NCBI GenBank assembly: GCA_030453055.1
Contig: JAKDLC010000117.1
Span: forward strand, 1-6,544
DNA length: 6,544 nucleotides
Direction of reading: 5' to 3'
Origin: Nitrosospira sp.
GTDB taxonomy: Bacteria > Pseudomonadota > Gammaproteobacteria > Burkholderiales > Nitrosomonadaceae
The position numbers and the translations under genes are program-made. Positions 1-6,544 of this stretch are shown piece by piece; the first letter of the stretch is position 1; each line of letters opens with the position of its first letter. The notes beneath the pieces were generated by a model. That model was not told the origin of the DNA, did no database searches, and saw only the letters and a list, made by a program, of their open reading frames with translations.

Positions 1-45
1 GTCGGCGGATTTTCGCAGGAAGTAATCATGCAACGCTTGCAGCAT
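1..45 (-). CDS. cas8c: Cas8c (Csd1-type) large Cascade subunit, N-terminal 15 codons only
   Basis: On the minus strand an ATG at 45-43 shares its A with the TGA stop of cas5 (TGATG overlap), which indicates translational coupling. The 15 visible residues read MLQALHDYFLRKSAD. Type I-C Cas8c/Csd1 proteins typically begin M(I)LQALxxYYxRL, so the start, spacing and gene order (cas3, cas5, cas8c) all agree. In this family Cas8c is the large subunit of the type I-C surveillance complex, which reads the PAM and helps recruit Cas3. The gene leaves the window at position 1, so nothing can be said about its integrity. The family call rests on a short N-terminus plus gene order. Confidence 0.82.
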   Translation of the reverse strand, partial: MLQALHDYFLRKSAD

Positions 46-776
46 CATCCCCGCACCTCGCCGCTATCCCATGCCGGAAGATGATCAACCTCCTTCCCTG
101 TAAGCTCACCGTTTCTTAGTCGTGCATTGAAAAAACGCGGTTGGGGGTGGTCGCCACTTTTGCCGTAATCCAGGTCATAGAGCATCCATCCCAGATCGCG
201 CGTTTCTGCTATCGCCGGCGATTGTATCGTCGCGGAATTCTCCACCAACCGGAAATTCGCCGCGAACTCTCGACAGCCAAGATAGGGCTGGTTGACGCAC
301 TGGCCTTTTCGCGCGCGACGCTCGAACATACTCATGAATTTCGGCGCGTTGTTATCCGGTAGCATTGCAAGCTCGTCCTCACCCTGATTCATTTTGCGTT
401 TGGACAAATAGGAATAATTTGATTTATGAAAATCGGAATCGCACAATTCGAAATGCGCGTGTATACGATACGCCACGTCGCGCAGAAACAATCCGGCACG
501 TTGTTGACGCACGCTCGGCTCGTCAGCAAAAATCCCGTCTTTGCCGATAATGGCAACCGCACCCACTTCATTACGGCGCACAGATATCCACTTAATCGGT
601 TTCAACACCTCGATTTTGGTAATGTGCCAATGGATTGCTGGTTTCCACAGTATTGACTCGAATACGGCTCGCGCGGCGGAGGGCGTCATCACATCGTAAG
701 AAACCCGCTCCACCTTCATTTCAGGACGGGTGAAGCAGGCAAAATCGCCGGTTACTTTCAAACAGTAGGTTTTCAT
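45..776 (-). CDS. cas5c: Type I-C Cas5 (Cas5d/Cas5c), crRNA-processing Cascade subunit
   Basis: The 243-residue product has the Cas5 N-terminal RAMP strand (residues 4-18, VTGDFACFTRP), the family segment FESILWKPAIHW (39-50), VLKPIKWISVRRNEVGAV (57-74) and the I-C block RRARKGQCVNQPYLGCREF (153-171). Type I-C lacks Cas6; Cas5 both cleaves the repeat hairpin and caps the 5' handle of crRNA in Cascade. Two points are odd. The position matching the catalytic Tyr of Bacillus halodurans Cas5d is Leu43, and the Lys-His pair appears as Lys146-Phe147 (PKF before MSMFERRARKGQ), preceded by an extra loop at about 112-142. From memory, Leu at the first position is common in proteobacterial members, so this does not show loss of activity. 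The start ATG (776-774) has only a weak GGA upstream. It overlaps cas8c by 1 nt and is separated from cas3 by the creTA-like module. Confidence 0.93.
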   Translation of the reverse strand: MKTYCLKVTGDFACFTRPEMKVERVSYDVMTPSAARAVFESILWKPAIHWHITKIEVLKPIKWISVRRNEVGAVAIIGKDGIFADEPSVRQQRAGLFLRDVAYRIHAHFELCDSDFHKSNYSYLSKRKMNQGEDELAMLPDNNAPKFMSMFERRARKGQCVNQPYLGCREFAANFRLVENSATIQSPAIAETRDLGWMLYDLDYGKSGDHPQPRFFNARLRNGELTGKEVDHLPAWDSGEVRG

Positions 777-815: not shown

Positions 816-938
816 TTATTCTTTTCCCCAAAACCCCAGAATAACAATCAATACCAGAAACCAGATGCCCCAGAATCTCGGAGACGGAAGCTGTATCAAC
901 ATCAACCTAACCTCTCGCATTAATCCTCTCCAGTCCAT
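816..938 (-). CDS. Small 40-aa hydrophobic protein or mini-ORF, candidate CreT toxin
   Basis: The ORF starts at ATG 938-936, preceded by AGGGGAG five bases upstream, and ends at TAA 818-816. Residues 1-21 are short and basic (Arg4, 8, 11, 21). Residues 22-37 (FWGIWFLVLIVILGFW) form one hydrophobic segment ending in GKE, like many small membrane toxins. All four Arg codons are of the rare type (AGA, CGA, AGG, AGA), and AUA, UUA and two GGA also occur. Known CreT RNAs poison the cell by sequestering rare tRNAs through mini-ORF codons, so either a membrane or a tRNA-sequestering mode would fit. A second in-frame ATG at codon 7 has its own GAGAGGA upstream (34-aa form). A longer frame from 1016 would start inside the promoter and lacks a ribosome-binding site. 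It is co-oriented with cas3 and cas5, 39 bases upstream of cas5. The alternative is a leader peptide for cas5. The ORF is well supported; the toxin role is inference. Confidence 0.66.
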   Translation of the reverse strand: MDWRGLMREVRLMLIQLPSPRFWGIWFLVLIVILGFWGKE

Positions 939-943
939 ACTGT

Positions 944-950
944 CTCCCCT
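944..950 (-). promoter_or_regulatory. Shine-Dalgarno of the small ORF (decides the 938 start)
   Basis: Minus-strand AGGGGAG lies five bases before ATG 938-936. It is the strongest purine-rich site in the cas3-cas5 gap downstream of the mapped promoter, and it favours the 40-codon start over the 66-codon frame that would begin at 1016. Confidence 0.65.
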
Positions 951-986
951 AAGCAAACTCAACTTCGAGGATAGGATAGCATATAA

Positions 987-1016
987 ATAATACTTCACTA
1001 GATTTTGATTTAACAA
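987..1016 (-). promoter_or_regulatory. Sigma70-like promoter of the small ORF (candidate PcreT)
   Basis: Reading the minus strand, -35 is TTGTTA (1016-1011, 4/6 to consensus) and -10 is TATTAT (992-987, 5/6), separated by 18 bp. Transcription would begin near 980, giving a leader of about 40 nt before ATG 938. The spacer between the two boxes is the 15-nt sequence repeated downstream of the CRISPR-like repeat, plus its TTC PAM. An R-loop there would therefore block this promoter directly. The promoter could also feed cas5 and cas8c. Confidence 0.6.
994..1011 (+). promoter_or_regulatory. PAM (TTC) plus 15-nt seed protospacer, putative Cascade operator
   Basis: TTC at 994-996 is followed by ACTAGATTTTGATTT (997-1011), identical to the first 15 nt (1064-1078) after the CRISPR-like repeat. 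TTC 5' of the protospacer is the established type I-C PAM. Identity stops at position 16, and later positions match only sporadically, so the site fits seed-directed binding rather than full interference. It fills the space between the -10 and -35 boxes of the small-ORF promoter. Seen directly: the match, the PAM and the location. Inferred: the repression. Confidence 0.75.
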
Positions 1017-1025
1017 ACCTATAAA
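994..1025 (+). promoter_or_regulatory. Candidate promoter of the crRNA-like RNA (creA)
   Basis: TATAAA (1020-1025) is a 5/6 match to the -10 consensus and would place the transcription start at about 1032, the first base of the CRISPR-like repeat. The -35 is poor: TTCACT (994-999, 4/6) at 20-bp spacing is the best candidate. The promoter lies back to back with, and overlaps, the opposite promoter of the small ORF. Cascade bound at 994 and onward would cover it too, allowing self-limitation of creA. Confidence 0.4.
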
Positions 1026-1078
1026 CTTGTAGTGCGTTCTAATGAAAGAACGAGGATTGAAACACTAGATTTTGATTT
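996..1078. repeat. 16-bp direct repeat pair flanking the CRISPR-like repeat
   Basis: CACTAGATTTTGATTT occurs at 996-1011 and at 1063-1078, 67 bp apart. The leading C of the second copy is the last base of the CRISPR-like repeat; the remaining 15 bases are the spacer-like start. The bases before the copies differ (TT versus AA). The 67-bp period equals a typical type I-C repeat-plus-spacer unit, but 965-996 shows no repeat-like sequence, so this is not a second degenerate array unit. Confidence 0.85.
1032..1063 (+). CRISPR. Solitary type I-C-like CRISPR repeat (32 nt)
   Basis: The element starts GTGCGTTCT and ends GAGGATTGAAAC. It contains a perfect 6-bp stem CGTTCT/AGAACG (1035-1040 and 1047-1052 within a base or so) with a 6-nt loop. 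The stem is followed by exactly 11 nt, AGGATTGAAAC (1053-1063). Type I-C repeats are usually 32 nt, begin GT, and are cut by Cas5d at the 3' base of the stem to leave an 11-nt handle ending GGAUUGAAAC/U, so length, stem and handle all agree. No other copy of this repeat is present in the window, so it is not an ordinary array. It is the repeat part of a minimal, one-unit CRISPR-like RNA. Confidence 0.85.
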
Positions 1079-1094
1079 TTTATTTATCGACAAT

Positions 1095-1137
1095 GCGCCA
1101 CACTCAAAAAGTGTGGCGCTATTCGTTTAATTTTTTT
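1095..1137 (+). terminator. Hairpin plus T-tract ending the crRNA-like RNA
   Basis: GCGCCACACT (1095-1104) pairs perfectly with AGTGTGGCGC (1110-1119) across a 5-nt loop, CAAAA. Downstream on the plus strand comes TATTCGTTTAA and then seven T (1131-1137). The T-tract is about 11 nt from the stem, so termination may be imperfect. On the minus strand no T-run follows, so it does not suit the end of the cas3 transcript. It occupies the place where a second repeat would be in a normal CRISPR unit. Confidence 0.55.
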
Positions 1138-1163: not shown

Positions 1164-3404
1164 CTAACCGCACAGTGAAGCCGGGTCTGGATTATCATCA
1201 TTGAGCAGTACGCCTAACTCGACATGGTAAAGCGCATCGGATGATAACGCGAACATTCCCTGCCATAATTCCCTTACGTCATGCCGATCCCGCATTTTCT
1301 CGAATTGGTATTGGGGCAAGCTCACGCTGTAGCGCTGGAGTTTACGCATCAGCCAGCGCTTCGGACCGTCCTTTTCAAGCCGTCCCAAAAGACCCGCGTA
1401 TTCTTCGCCATAGGGCACAAAAATTGGTTGGTAACCACTTTCATCAACCAGATTAAATTTTGCCGCCGCGCTACGAAACTGAACTTCGAATTCATCCCCA
1501 GCTTTGAGAAAATCGCCGATACGCTGTTCATCCAAATCAGCTTGCGCATAGAGCTTTTCGAAATAAGGTTGTAACAACGCTCTTGCCAGCGGATCGCCTT
1601 TATAATCAAAAAGCATGCTTATCGCGGCTTGTTCCGCCTTGAGAAGCAGACCGGCGGGGGCTGGTTTGGGCGGAACAAATACCCAAACCGTACCGCGCTC
1701 AAATCTGCCTTCCCGGTTGCATCGCCCGGCGGCTTGATGGATGGAATCCAGCCCCGCCATTGCGCGGTAGACTATCGGAAAATCAATGTCTACGCCCGCC
1801 TCCACCAACTGTGTGCTGATTACCCGCACCGGCTCGCCATCCTTTAACTTCTGTTTGATTTCGGCTATCACGTAAGAACGGTGCGCACCGCACATCAACG
1901 CAGAAAGGTGGACTGTTCCCTTCGGCATAAGCCGGTGCAGCTCGCGGCAATCGGCGCGGCTATTAACGATGCACAGCACCGACTCGTGCTGTTGTAATGC
2001 TTGTGCGATATCTTCCCACGTATTGGGTTGATGAAAATCATCCGGCAATCGAACAGTCACACGCTCCAAATCACAATACAGTGCATCGCGGTCCTGCATG
2101 ATTTCGCGTACGCCCTCCAATCCCTTGAAATGCCAGCCGAACCCGCTGCGGCTATTCAGCGCGGGTTGGGTGGCGGTCGAGAATACGAATGACACGCCGT
2201 AATACTTGGTTAACAAATTTATTGCGTTCAGGATAGGCTGTAAAAATTCTGGTGGAAGTAGTTGCGCTTCGTCCAGCACGACGACACTGTTGACAATATT
2301 GTGCAGCTTGCGGCAGCGGCTGGTTCGCGCCGCGAACAGCGATTCGAAAAATTGCACGTTGGTAGTAACGATAACAGGCGCATCCCAATTTTCCGTCGCC
2401 AAGCGGCTTTGCACGGTTTCTTCGTCCGGATCGAGGTTGCTGTGATGCGCTATCACTGCATCTCCGAGAATATCGCGGAAAATTTTTGCAGTCTGTTCGA
2501 TGATGCTGGTGTACGGGATTGCATAGATGATACGGCGCTTGCCGTGCTTAATCGCATGATCGAGCGCAAACGCCATGCTGGAAAGAGTCTTACCGCCACC
2601 GGTGGGAACCGTCAAAGAGAATAAGCCAGGATCATCGCTCGCCCTCGCGCGACATTGGCGCAGCACTTCGGCTCGCACCCTGTTTACCGATGTTTGCGCC
2701 GCACTCCCTGATTTTTTCGCCATATGCCGCTCAAACAAAACCCGCAAATTGGAGAGCTGTGGCAAACCGCTACGCTCGGTGGCCCTGTTCTCGTCCATGA
2801 ATCGCTCAGTATCGAGAAAATCCGCATCTGTCAGGCAGGAAAAAAGCATTCTCACCCACAGCGCGAAACCTTCCCGTCCGCCGGGTATTGAGCCCGCAGG
2901 CTTATTCTGGCGGAGAATATCCGGCGAAATGGGCTGGCTTAATGTCTCGGTAAGCAAATTGGCTTGGTGCGCCCGTATTGAAAGAGCCGCGCCAGCAGTT
3001 TCACTGGTATACCAATCCGGCAGACCTGCATGATGCCCGGCGATCAGATATGCAAGGATACGGCCATGTACACCGAATTCCGCTATCGCATGGATAGCGC
3101 CAGCCGTTGAATGATCAACGCGCCCTTTCGCGCCTTCCAGGTGCGCGTCGACAGCATAACCACTGGGGGGTTTTATATAGCGTTGAAATGCCTCACGGTA
3201 TTTTCCTAAGTCATGCCACAATCCGGCTAGCGCCGCCCACTCCGTGCCGCCAAATGGCTGAGCAAAATCCCTCGCTAAAAGAGACACCTCCCGCAGATGC
3301 TCTTCCAATGAATGTTCCCGCCAAACACCAGTGGCATCTTGCGTAACATGAGCAAGTATGCGTTGGCTTGTTGATGTCTCTTTCACTTTATTCTCATTCA
3401 TCAT
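1164..3404 (-). CDS. cas3: Type I-C Cas3 HD nuclease / DExH helicase
   Basis: Counting from ATG 3404 (746 residues), the N-terminal HD nuclease domain shows His36, His64-Asp65 (HDLGK), DHSTAG (97-102), GHH (123-125) and the TDAD region (192-195). The SF2 helicase follows: Walker A PTGGGKT (267-273), DEAQ (378-381), STAT (409-412), CIVNSR (about 478-483), STQLVEAGVDIDFP (about 530-543) and QAAGRCNREG (557-566). All core motifs are intact and the length is normal for I-C Cas3. Cas3 is recruited by Cascade to an R-loop and unwinds and degrades the target DNA in an ATP-dependent manner. An in-frame GTG at 3419 would add five residues, but it sits inside the Shine-Dalgarno (AGGAGGTGAT), so ATG 3404 or ATG 3401 is preferred. 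It is the first gene of the operon; cas5 follows after the 387-bp creTA-like gap instead of directly. Confidence 0.96.
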   Translation of the reverse strand: MMNENKVKETSTSQRILAHVTQDATGVWREHSLEEHLREVSLLARDFAQPFGGTEWAALAGLWHDLGKYREAFQRYIKPPSGYAVDAHLEGAKGRVDHSTAGAIHAIAEFGVHGRILAYLIAGHHAGLPDWYTSETAGAALSIRAHQANLLTETLSQPISPDILRQNKPAGSIPGGREGFALWVRMLFSCLTDADFLDTERFMDENRATERSGLPQLSNLRVLFERHMAKKSGSAAQTSVNRVRAEVLRQCRARASDDPGLFSLTVPTGGGKTLSSMAFALDHAIKHGKRRIIYAIPYTSIIEQTAKIFRDILGDAVIAHHSNLDPDEETVQSRLATENWDAPVIVTTNVQFFESLFAARTSRCRKLHNIVNSVVVLDEAQLLPPEFLQPILNAINLLTKYYGVSFVFSTATQPALNSRSGFGWHFKGLEGVREIMQDRDALYCDLERVTVRLPDDFHQPNTWEDIAQALQQHESVLCIVNSRADCRELHRLMPKGTVHLSALMCGAHRSYVIAEIKQKLKDGEPVRVISTQLVEAGVDIDFPIVYRAMAGLDSIHQAAGRCNREGRFERGTVWVFVPPKPAPAGLLLKAEQAAISMLFDYKGDPLARALLQPYFEKLYAQADLDEQRIGDFLKAGDEFEVQFRSAAAKFNLVDESGYQPIFVPYGEEYAGLLGRLEKDGPKRWLMRKLQRYSVSLPQYQFEKMRDRHDVRELWQGMFALSSDALYHVELGVLLNDDNPDPASLCG

Positions 3405-3414
3405 TGTTAACGCA

Positions 3415-3424
3415 ATCACCTCCT
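3415..3424 (-). promoter_or_regulatory. Near-perfect Shine-Dalgarno of cas3
   Basis: Minus-strand AGGAGGTGAT matches the 16S rRNA 3' end over ten bases. It ends 10 nt before ATG 3404 and covers the alternative GTG 3419-3417, which therefore cannot readily be the start. Confidence 0.65.
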
Positions 3425-3832: not shown

Positions 3833-4894
3833 GTGGCTTCGGAATTTCCATCCTTGCGTACTGATCCTGCCACACACGAACTTCTTCACGGCATCCTCAA
3901 GCAGGTCTCCCGTTCGTTTTATCTCACGCTTAACGTGCTGCCGGCGGACATGCGCGACCAGATGGGGCTGTCGTACCTTTTTGCGCGTGCTGCCGACACC
4001 ATCGCCGATACAAATCTGATCGACCGCGAGCAGCGCCTGAAATATCTCAATCAGTTCCGTGCGCAGTTCCGGGCTGCCGAAATCGACTGGAGGGCCGTCC
4101 AGGAGATTCAAACCGCACTCATTCCCCACCAGAAAGACTCTGCGGAAGCCATTCTTCTTCAGCGGCTGGAAGACTGTTTGAAATTGTATGAAGCGTTGTC
4201 CGCCGGCGATCGGGAGCGGGTTCAGTGGTTAATGGGCGTGCTCCCCGACGGAATGGAAATGGACCTGACTACCTTTCCCGGCGAGTCGGTCGAATACCTC
4301 ACGGCATTGTCCACACTGGACGAATTGGACCAGTACACTTATTATGTTGCGGGTTGTGTCGGAGAGTTCTGGACCCGGATGGTTTGTGCGCACCGGCCGG
4401 CGATGGCCCGGTGGGACATCGCGAAAATGTCCGCCATCGGTGTGAGATTCGGCAAAGGGCTGCAACTTACCAACATCGTCAAGGATATCGCCCGCGATCT
4501 GCATAATGGCCGCTGCTATGTGCCGGAGTCGCTCTTGCGGGAAGCCGGATTGAAACCCGTCGATCTGCTGAATGAAGACAACCTGCTGCGATTCAGGCCG
4601 GCGTTGCATCGGCTCATCAAGCTCGCCATGGGACATCTGGACGAAGGCTGGAGGTATGCGATGGCGATTCCTCGTTCAGAGATTCGCCAACGATTGGCCT
4701 GCATGTGGCCAATTTTGCTTGCCGGCGAGACACTGAAACGGGTCGCAGTCTCCCCTGGCTTGCTCGATCCGGCCGTCAATGTCAAAGCGCCCCGCAGCGT
4801 TGTGTACCGCGTGATGGCCCTGACGATATTTTCCGGAGCCAGTGGATACGTGGGGACCGCTTACTGGAACTGTCTCAGTAAGCAGGTTGTCTGA
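3833..4894 (+). CDS. Squalene/phytoene synthase family protein (head-to-head prenyl transferase)
   Basis: The 353-residue product shows both Asp-rich substrate/Mg2+ motifs of the trans-prenyl head-to-head synthases: DTIAD (55-59) and DIARD (218-222, inside QLTNIVKDIARD). It also has SRSFYLTL (26-33), YYVAGCVGEFW (170-180) and GRCYVPESLL (226-235). Such enzymes condense two farnesyl or geranylgeranyl diphosphates to squalene or phytoene, feeding hopanoid/sterol or carotenoid synthesis. At 353 residues it is longer than typical bacterial HpnC, HpnD or CrtB (about 280). A hydrophobic stretch at 323-345 near the C-terminus recalls membrane-associated, eukaryote-like squalene synthases. The start is GTG 3833: an in-frame TGA ends directly before it and the first in-frame ATG is codon 40, inside the domain. 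There is no obvious Shine-Dalgarno. No other isoprenoid gene is adjacent, so squalene versus phytoene cannot be decided here. Confidence 0.9.
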   Translation: MASEFPSLRTDPATHELLHGILKQVSRSFYLTLNVLPADMRDQMGLSYLFARAADTIADTNLIDREQRLKYLNQFRAQFRAAEIDWRAVQEIQTALIPHQKDSAEAILLQRLEDCLKLYEALSAGDRERVQWLMGVLPDGMEMDLTTFPGESVEYLTALSTLDELDQYTYYVAGCVGEFWTRMVCAHRPAMARWDIAKMSAIGVRFGKGLQLTNIVKDIARDLHNGRCYVPESLLREAGLKPVDLLNEDNLLRFRPALHRLIKLAMGHLDEGWRYAMAIPRSEIRQRLACMWPILLAGETLKRVAVSPGLLDPAVNVKAPRSVVYRVMALTIFSGASGYVGTAYWNCLSKQVV

Positions 4895-5046
4895 GCCGTA
4901 GACCCGCTGGCCGGGTTGGCGCAGCCCTGTCCGGCAACTTATCCAGCCATTTGGTCGGCGAATCCCTGCCAGGAATTCGCAAAGCGATGTCCGCAAAGAA
5001 GCTTTCGCGCGCCGCACCCAGATAACCTTCATGAGAACCCATCGTT

Positions 5047-6544
5047 ATGACAACCGCTCCCCCCGCCGCAGGATTCTTTACCGCCTTGGGCCGCTGGTTC
5101 GATGTCAACATCCTGTCGCTCGGACGCGAGATGCGCTTGTCCTATCTGCCTCCACTCATGGTGTATGCCGCCGCCGGTATTTCGGGCCTGACAGGGATAG
5201 TGGGCACGTTTTACGTCAAGGAACGGTTGGGACTGTCCGCCGAGTTCCTGGCGGCGCTCGGATTCTGGATGATGTTGCCGTGGGCCTTGAAGATGCCGCT
5301 CGGTCATCTGGTGGATCTGATATGGCCCTGGAAAAGTTTGCTCGTGTATCTGGGCGCGAGCCTCATCACGTTGAGCCTGCTGATCATGATCGGCCTGCTC
5401 GGGTACACCGACGCAATGGGCGCGGCCGCCTCGGTGGAAGCCTGGTACGTCACCGCGGCATTGCTCGCGCCGATCGGCTATGTGCTGCAGGATGTGGTTG
5501 CGGACGCCATGACAGTCGAAGCCGTGCCGCGCGTGGATGCCGATGGAGAGCCCTTGTCGCTCGACGATCGCAAACCCATGCACGTCACCATGCAAACACT
5601 CGGGCGTGTTGCGATCATTGGCGGCGGCGTTTTGGTCTCGGTGGCGAACGTCTTTCTATTGCGCGGCGTCGGTGAGTTATCCGAGGCGGAGAAGGCGGCC
5701 ACTTACCTGTTCGTCTATCAGCTCGCCCTGATCATCCCGCTGGTTTCGGTTTACGGTGTTTTGTTCGCTACCCGGCTGCGGCGGCGCGACGTGGCACGGC
5801 TTTTGGCGCAGGGACATAGTCGCGAGGAATGTGAGGCGCTGCTGAGCGCCGACACGGATCCCCCTCCGGTCAACTGGTGGATTCTCGGCGGGGGACTCGC
5901 CTTTACCCTGGTTTCTCTGAGCGTCGGCCTCAACCGCGTCCCCGGCGGGGAAGAAATCGTCTTCGGCGTTTCCATGGCAATCGTGCTGTTTCTGATGTGG
6001 CGGCTGACCGGAGAGCTTGAGCCCAGAGCGCGCAACGTACTGGTGGGCACGGCGATTCTGATTTTCGTATTCCGCGCCATGCCGGGTCCGGGCGCCGGTT
6101 CGACGTGGTGGATGATCGATCAACTGGGTTTCGATCAACAATTTCTCGCCACATTGTCGCTGGTCGGCGCGATACTAACGCTCGCCGGAATGTTCATTTT
6201 TCGCCGTTTCATGGCGGAGCGCTCGATTGCCTACATCATCGGCGTACTCACCATCGCCGGAACCGTGCTATCGCTGCCCATCGTCGGCATGTATTTCGGC
6301 TTGCATGAATGGACCGCTTCGCTCACCGGCGGTGTCGTGGATGCACGATTCATTGCCCTGATCGACACCGCGCTGGAGTCGCCCCTAGGGCAGATCGCCA
6401 CGATTCCGATGCTGGCATGGATCGCGAACTCGGCGCCGGAAAATCTCAAGGCCACATTCTTTGCGGTGATGGCCTCATTCACCAACTTGGCCCTGTCCGC
6501 TTCGCAACTCGGGACCAAGTACCTGAATCAGGCGTTCGAGGTCA
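5047..6544 (+). CDS. Multi-pass membrane transporter, BT1 (folate-biopterin)/MFS-like, 3' truncated by window
   Basis: The frame is open from ATG 5047 to the window end (499 codons, no stop). It was chosen because an in-frame TGA lies at 5032-5034 and this is the first ATG after it. There are about 11-12 hydrophobic segments, for example residues 35-56, 70-84, 98-118, 137-150, 186-204, 219-238, 279-297, 302-318, 329-344, 370-388 and 398-418. The repeated-half layout and the segments VGTFYVKERLGLSAEFLAAL (54-73), FWMMLPWALKMPLGHLVD (about 74-91) and DVVADAMTVEAVPRVD (149-164) recall the BT1 folate/biopterin branch of the MFS. Substrate cannot be read from sequence. It lies 152 bp after the synthase gene on the same strand; the gap shows no clear promoter or terminator, so co-transcription is possible. 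Assignment to a membrane transporter is firm, BT1 less so. Confidence 0.75.
   Translation, partial: MTTAPPAAGFFTALGRWFDVNILSLGREMRLSYLPPLMVYAAAGISGLTGIVGTFYVKERLGLSAEFLAALGFWMMLPWALKMPLGHLVDLIWPWKSLLVYLGASLITLSLLIMIGLLGYTDAMGAAASVEAWYVTAALLAPIGYVLQDVVADAMTVEAVPRVDADGEPLSLDDRKPMHVTMQTLGRVAIIGGGVLVSVANVFLLRGVGELSEAEKAATYLFVYQLALIIPLVSVYGVLFATRLRRRDVARLLAQGHSREECEALLSADTDPPPVNWWILGGGLAFTLVSLSVGLNRVPGGEEIVFGVSMAIVLFLMWRLTGELEPRARNVLVGTAILIFVFRAMPGPGAGSTWWMIDQLGFDQQFLATLSLVGAILTLAGMFIFRRFMAERSIAYIIGVLTIAGTVLSLPIVGMYFGLHEWTASLTGGVVDARFIALIDTALESPLGQIATIPMLAWIANSAPENLKATFFAVMASFTNLALSASQLGTKYLNQAFEV

Follow-up and report, generated by a model that had tools for sequence, protein, structure and literature searches.

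The window, the whole stretch of 6,544 nucleotides that we analysed, is one entire contig out of the 446 in a 2.5-Mb Nitrosospira MAG that is 80% complete, and the contig ends just beyond cas5. The genes cas3 and cas5c are separated in the window by a gap of 387 bp. The two genes and the features between them are as follows:

45 to 776, minus strand: cas5c (Cas5d), the crRNA-processing subunit of type I-C Cascade (TIGR01876, E 2.9e-62)
816 to 938, minus strand: small gene of 40 aa with two predicted helices (3-15 and 19-39), a candidate CreT/CreP-like product (from the ORF, conservation, profiles and a model)
944 to 949, minus strand: Shine-Dalgarno-like GGGGAG, 5 nt before the ATG (from sequence)
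987 to 1016, minus strand: predicted promoter of the small gene, with -35 TTGTTA at 1016-1011, an 18-nt spacer and -10 TATTAT at 992-987 (hexamers 9/12)
994 to 1011, plus strand: TTC PAM (994-996) and 15-nt protospacer (997-1011), from identity to the guide
1029 to 1063, plus strand: solitary degenerate CRISPR repeat of 35 nt, with a 6-bp stem abutting an intact 3' handle (from sequence and folding)
1064 to 1094, plus strand: CreA-like guide (spacer analogue), its first 15 nt identical to 997-1011 and 20/34 nt matching overall
1095 to 1119, plus strand: GC-rich hairpin after the guide, with a 10-bp stem, a loop of 5 and a T-rich tail (from sequence)
1164 to 3419, minus strand: cas3 (HD and helicase), the upstream gene of the operon (TIGR01596 and TIGR01587, both above their cut-offs)

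A second contig of the same MAG, C129, carries the tail of cas8c (TIGR01863, E 1.3e-48, below the cut-off because the gene is partial) and, by inspection of the translations, cas7, cas4, cas1 and cas2. We infer that the window contig and C129 join to form one operon. Cas5c adjoins Cas3 in the window and Cas8c and Cas7 are on C129; given this linkage, the locus is a type I-C CRISPR-Cas system. The profile matches for cas3, cas5c and the partial cas8c bear out the earlier placement of the module between cas3 and cas5 of a type I-C operon. C129 also bears a HicA-type toxin gene (PF07927, E 4.7e-12) between cas7 and cas4 (locus L015, 1584-2035), with a small ORF without a Pfam match upstream of it in the HicB position; the operon that holds it is probably the same as that of the window. 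Beyond cas3, at 3833-6544 on the plus strand, the window contains a squalene/phytoene-synthase-like gene, below the curated cut-offs, and a transporter-like gene.

The preliminary description had claimed a solitary CRISPR repeat and a spacer-like guide with a 15-nt seed match in the gap, and both are there: the repeat lies within a few bases of where it had been placed, and 1064-1078 is identical to 997-1011. The 3' handle of the solitary repeat is GATTGAAAC, and it is identical to the handle of a 37-nt repeat at the end of contig C90 from the same genome. The stem is paired in both, but that of the solitary repeat is different and weaker (-6.4 kcal/mol versus -22.0 kcal/mol for the C90 repeat). 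Judged by this comparison, the solitary repeat is a degenerate form of the C90 repeat, and the C90 array, because of its repeat, presumably belongs to the window's operon. Against Rfam, the solitary repeat gave a sub-threshold match to CRISPR-DR9 (20.7 bits, with a gathering threshold of 45; E 0.62), and a match of the window to isrN (E 0.49) was taken as chance. The hairpin that follows the guide could be a terminator of the guide RNA or the remnant of a second degenerate repeat.

The TTC PAM that had been reported at the matched site is found at 994-996, directly beside the protospacer. The window guide/target match is T-rich, and it beats shuffled guides (P 0.0004). In the window the target lies within the spacer of the predicted promoter and the PAM is next to the -10. 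The claim that the matched site sits inside a promoter stands as a prediction: promoter-like hexamers bracket the target at 1016-987, but one such pair was found versus 1.7 expected in shuffled sequence, and because the pair is at chance level it is no evidence on its own. By inspection, a -10-like element occurs soon after the PAM in most of 12 aligned loci from the set described below; L031, L075 and L141 fit this pattern less well. The tiny ORF, likewise claimed before, runs from 938 to 816 and encodes a member of a conserved protein family. It ends 39 nt before cas5c and no terminator-like site was found between the two, so transcripts from the predicted promoter may continue into cas5.

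For comparison we collected cas5c loci from three sources: the best 80 of 120 relatives in genome contigs; 369 genomes of the class, of which 37 had a match and the best-matching ones gave 30 loci, new or own; and 399 genomes of the order, 46 with a match, which in the same way gave 29 loci, new or own. Removal of nine exact duplicates just upstream of cas5 reduced the 140 sequences (the window, 80 loci and 59 loci) to 131, a few of which have no usable upstream sequence. The apparent upstream sequence of L083 is an artefact, because this locus begins inside cas5. A locus from the same family as the window (genome G436) is identical just upstream of cas5 to the Nitrosomonas eutropha locus L026. 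The cas3-cas5 gap was estimated automatically as 100 bp or less in 94 of the 131 loci, a method that gave a wrong value for L093 at least. Searches with cas5 confirmed none in viral contigs and returned 49 plasmid records, all below 60% identity. At the cas3-cas5 junction of other loci we observed a Phd antitoxin gene (PF02604; L034 and L045), Phd with a VapC-like gene (L034 and L040, by inspection) and a VapC-like tail (L063); perhaps this junction is a hot spot for toxin-antitoxin modules in I-C operons.

The decisive evidence for the guide/target match is comparative and comes from the sequences of these loci. We scanned up to 520 nt upstream of cas5 on both strands, using a permissive repeat-end motif and scoring seed positions 1-5 and 7-11. 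At least nine of the ten seed pairs were present at TTC in 15 of 131 loci, versus a mean of 0.19 and a maximum of 1 for the other 63 triplets. With at least eight of ten, TTC gave 20 loci; some of these are chance matches, because the other triplets average 1.46 with a maximum of 5. Two of the matches at this level, L078 and L157, were taken as chance and excluded. The 20 pairs that we analysed are thus the other 18 with at least 8/10 at TTC, together with L149 and L151; L151, which was first spotted by eye, has a 10/10 seed pair with GTT as PAM. Taken individually, seven of the first eight cas3-cas5 modules had a seed that beat shuffled guides at P <0.01. L031 has a seed match of 6 nt only (P 0.116 versus shuffled guides) and was kept as a weak case outside the 20 pairs. 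In 15 of 18 folded loci (L149, L151 and L176 were left out of this set) the repeat has a stem of 5 bp or more that directly adjoins the handle, versus 21% of shuffles. Several related loci also have a hairpin after the guide, by inspection, and its T tail is not always present. The search of related I-C operons for the same insertion, which the preliminary description had proposed, found the anatomy recurring with different but matched guide and target sequences. A further arrangement of this sort was seen in a locus from Planctomycetia (L089, 7440-7840), where a repeat with its guide follows cas7. The guide pairs (10/10 seed) with a site at TTC some 350 nt distant, near the start of an ORF preceding a second cas5-like gene.

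The mismatches within the pairs are not evenly spread. Position 6 is mismatched in 13 and position 12 in 16 of the 20 pairs, and positions 13, 14 and 15, which were as unscored as 6 and 12, are mismatched in 5, 4 and 8 (29/40 for 6 and 12 versus 17/60 for 13-15; Fisher 1.6e-5). Over positions 1-15, the only differences in guide and target between the window and L018 are those at 6 and 12. In the H. hubeiense CreA, mutation at positions 6 and 12 made no difference (PMC8501985). Moreover, pairs of related loci carry compensatory changes in the seed, by which guide and target changed together. There are four such changes between L023 and L165 (with two one-sided or other changes), six between L136 and L139 (with one), three between L075 and L084 (with three) and one between L182 and L184 (with one), and simple sequence duplication would not yield them. 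An ordinary leftover of a decayed array, with an accidental direct repeat in AT-rich DNA, might account for the T-rich match and chance-level hexamers of the window if it were seen alone. Such a relic is contradicted by the comparison of loci, namely by the specificity for TTC, the pattern at positions 6 and 12 and the compensatory changes, and we rejected it as having next to no probability.

We then consider the product of the small gene. Eleven family members could be aligned (alignment A2), with M1, E9, R11 and R21 invariant, and the proteins of the family are 40-75 aa long. An AlphaFold2 model of the window protein has two helices (mean pLDDT 75), and the predicted product is most likely a small membrane protein. 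With the 40-aa ORF as query, a single-sequence protein search and tblastn in plasmids returned nothing. A profile search with A2 found 39 database proteins, some of them the fetched loci's own; none of the 39 has a Pfam domain or a name beyond "hypothetical protein". The window protein has no Pfam match, and the matches of other members are at E 0.02 or worse, none of them to KilA-N. In PADLOC one member gave a match at E 0.049 and the window protein none, and no relative of the window protein was found among PDB sequences. A family HMM built from A2 and the 39 database proteins matches 14 of the 131 loci, always beside cas5 and nowhere else in the loci scanned (1-9 kb each). A TTC pair of at least 8/10 is present in 13 of the 14 loci with the family versus 7 of the 117 without it (Fisher 3.5e-12), in a test that is not fully independent because most members came from loci picked by gap or guide. 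The fourteenth is L151, the locus with the GTT pair, where the ORF came to notice earlier than the pairing. The distribution on a FastTree of 127 cas5 proteins is patchy and resembles that of toxin-antitoxin genes.

Some modules have a pair without an intact family gene. By inspection, a tandem duplication of 11 bp interrupts the small ORF of L037 (3838-3990), one piece of which gives the family match; the guide/target match of this locus is 21/24. L174 has a pair without a family ORF. Repression may thus persist without the protein. The small ORF of L031 gave no match to the family HMM. The pair of L176 (1888-2070) lies upstream of an ORF of 61 aa that is not a family member; this ORF has, by inspection, a lipoprotein-like signal.

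The characterised CreT toxins are RNAs, with tRNA sequestration in the two archaeal cases, and the mRNA of the small gene could be envisaged to sequester a rare tRNA as archaeal CreT does, the peptide being irrelevant. The window ORF does have AGA, CGA and AGG codons early on. Neither L018 nor L023 retains both the early AGA and the early CGA, though each retains the protein. The pN/pS ratio is 0.10 between the window and L018 (5.0 of 94.3 versus 13.0 of 25.7) and 0.28 between the window and L023, and spans 0.10-0.29 in the three pairs among the window, L018 and L023. Together with the existence of a protein family with phage homologues, this conservation at the protein level, an indirect test, led us to reject an RNA toxin, which we regard as very improbable.

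The phage homologues belong to phrog_6632, a profile of 45 positions that matches seven of the 11 members at E up to 0.1 (E 2.3e-6 for the window). In profile-profile comparison (hhalign) the family and phrog_6632 align at E 4e-12. Scored on the family profile, each of the five phage proteins ranks above 10,000 shuffles; scored conversely on the phage profile, ten of the 11 members rank above 11,000 shuffles, the exception being L093. The motif common to both is (I/L)RE(L/V)R(L/I)M..(Q/K)L...(R/K)F...W. The homology rests on profiles, because tblastn of the window protein in phages gave weak single matches (best E 0.005). We inspected the neighbourhood in eight of 14 phage records with a homologue. 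The homologue lies between endolysin and Rz in SPN3UB, and FSL SP-016 has it in the corresponding place, the gene in the Rz position being called hypothetical; in E. coli phage 569R3 it is flanked by lysozyme R and Rz, and two small genes also lie in that interval. Its neighbours in Rac-SA53, SEN34 and an Actinobacillus phage are baseplate genes, and two Pseudomonas phages have it in their tail-tip region. Thus, the phrog_6632 proteins are phage-borne in lysis, baseplate or tail-tip regions, whereas the window family is beside cas5. DNA related to the phage homologue (L190, 2480-2640) occurs in 908 of 5,426 complete E. coli genomes, mostly at 80-90% identity, and in the 15 among the matches listed it is annotated as a hypothetical protein.

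This relationship raises the possibility that the small gene is a back-up defence, a phage-derived exclusion or abortive-infection protein that would act when a phage inhibits Cascade and would cost an uninfected cell little. The homologues are accessory genes in phage late regions, as would be expected of such a protein. Nothing shows protective activity, and a short amphipathic helix followed by a membrane helix also fits small membrane toxins, such as type I toxins. A published precedent for protein output triggered by anti-CRISPRs is CrePA (PMC12737573). On balance we consider a back-up defence unlikely.

The modules fall into three arrangements. In arrangement A, the repeat is antisense and the small gene points toward cas5 (the window, L018, L023, L037, L075, L084, L093, L141, L151, L165, L171 and L178, with L031 fitting weakly). 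Arrangement B, seen in L136 and L139, is inverted: its repeat lies on the cas-sense strand, and the small gene, again of this family, reads away from cas5, overlapping the end of cas3 and having the matched site upstream. In arrangement C (L147, L149, L182 and L184) the small gene comes first, followed by the repeat and guide, and the target is upstream of the small gene; in L147 and L149 it lies over a TTGACA-like -35, by inspection. The pairs of L147, L149 and L184 have mismatches at positions 6 and 12. The proteins of arrangement C are 50-54 aa long, each with a hydrophobic stretch by inspection, and they match neither the profile of the family in A and B nor any PHROG.

These arrangements bear on the hypothesis that the guide, like a CreR, represses a promoter meant for cas5c-cas8c-cas7, with the small ORF as a passenger or leader peptide. 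CreRs have been reported for I-B, I-E and V-A (PMC13131331). The short distance from the small ORF to cas5 in the window would suit such a role, as would the L174 pair without a family ORF and the near-perfect match that L037 keeps with a broken one. In L136 and L139 the matched site precedes a small gene pointing away from cas5, and autoregulation of the cas genes alone cannot explain the module. Likewise, the small protein is conserved and tied to the presence of guide and target, a leader peptide needs no phage homologues, and in L178 a hairpin lies between the small ORF and cas5 (by inspection). We therefore hold a purely CreR-like element to be improbable. The window promoter may still read into cas5, with cas autoregulation as a second effect, and autoregulation of cas5-cas8c-cas7 may occur in arrangements A and C, though it cannot explain B.

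We compared the module with known systems. The preliminary description gave archaeal type I-B as the characterised prototype of CreTA, which holds for the archaeal I-B system but omits a bacterial one, since CreTA is described as characterised both in archaeal I-B and in bacterial (Acinetobacter) I-F (PMC10097628). Like CreTA, the window has a degenerate ectopic repeat, related to the cognate repeat, in the cas locus, and a guide whose partial match, seed included, adjoins a functional PAM within the predicted promoter of a small gene. The match is too short for cleavage to be expected, with 15 contiguous nt and 20/34 versus the 27 nt of a Xanthomonas I-C system. As in the H. hubeiense CreA, positions 6 and 12 appear free, here by the pattern of mismatches. 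The junction on the cas3 side is also shared, one I-F CreTA having first been seen between cas3 and csy1 (PMC8501985, PMC10097628), and the window module lying between cas3 and cas5. Unlike CreTA, the window belongs to subtype I-C, with Cas5c and no Cas6, has one clearly recognisable repeat, and would repress what seems to be a conserved predicted membrane protein rather than a toxic RNA. Because the toxin of CreTA is an RNA, we call the module CreTA-like and not a strict CreTA member. In CrePA a protein toxin, CreP, with a KilA-N domain is repressed by a crRNA-like CreA (PMC12737573); the window is similar in its predicted protein product under Cascade repression, but that product is a predicted two-helix protein of 40-75 aa across its family, without a KilA-N match. 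CreR elements are described as generally not coupled to toxin genes (PMC12737573). The window shares with them a crRNA-like element that matches a predicted promoter in a cas operon, and this promoter could read into cas5; a CreR promoter serves cas genes only, which does not fit L136 and L139, and the module differs in that a conserved small gene is associated with the element and in some loci is directed away from cas5. Finally, the type II toxin-antitoxin genes of I-C operons are likewise found at the cas3-cas5 junction (Phd with VapC-like) or, in this genome, between cas7 and cas4 (HicA), but they have protein antitoxins, whereas the window module has a guide RNA. Among the matches listed in a literature search of titles and the beginnings of abstracts, none described a comparable module from type I-C; an I-C case may yet be found in the primary CreTA, CreR and CrePA reports. 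The term "I-C" was not found in the available text of PMC12737573, PMC8501985, PMC10097628 and PMC9458426.

Taken together, we favor as the probable explanation a CreTA-like type I-C module in which a small, phage-related, predicted membrane protein is the repressed and likely toxic product. The recurrent matched anatomy and the small protein family conserved in related loci support the CreTA-like reading that had been proposed. Toxicity is suggested by analogy, from the logic of CreTA, the membrane-protein features and the patchy distribution. Cas5c processes the pre-crRNA of type I-C systems (PMC7684278) and recognises the repeat hairpin (PMC8406640), so Cas5c would likely cut the antisense guide RNA at the base of the short stem that the repeats conserve. 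The guide RNA, 1029-1094, would then load Cascade, which would bind between the -35 and the -10 and silence the predicted promoter of the small gene. TTC has been shown to work as a PAM for a type I-C system, and killing by self-targeting in a Xanthomonas I-C system needed a 27-nt match (PMC8406640); with 15 contiguous nt, far fewer than 27, binding without destruction by Cas3 is expected. Should Cascade be lost, or be blocked by an anti-CRISPR, the promoter would be freed and the two-helix protein made. Cells that lose CRISPR would then stop growing or die, which would amount to an addiction function, or a phage that disables CRISPR would set off abortive infection.

Type I-C is among the most prevalent CRISPR subtypes (PMC7684278), and the module described here would extend CRISPR-guarding modules to it. 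The simple sequence rule of a repeat handle, a guide and a TTC site near cas5 finds such modules despite their poor sequence conservation. The analysis also names a small protein family, for which Pfam has no model, that is common to modules and phages. More broadly, we see about equal grounds for believing and for doubting that type I-C systems of several bacterial lineages carry kill switches silenced by Cascade, whose toxins are tiny membrane proteins shared with phages: a lysis-like or exclusion protein would be held down by a private guide RNA and released by a phage that disables Cascade. The cassette of repeat, guide and PAM site would be kept, while the small products and their orientation vary, with three arrangements and at least two apparently unrelated small-protein families. 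The module suggests a testable function for a hypothetical prophage gene with relatives in E. coli genomes, and it makes testable the idea that CRISPR-Cas retains itself, and punishes phages carrying anti-CRISPRs, by means of a phage-related membrane protein.
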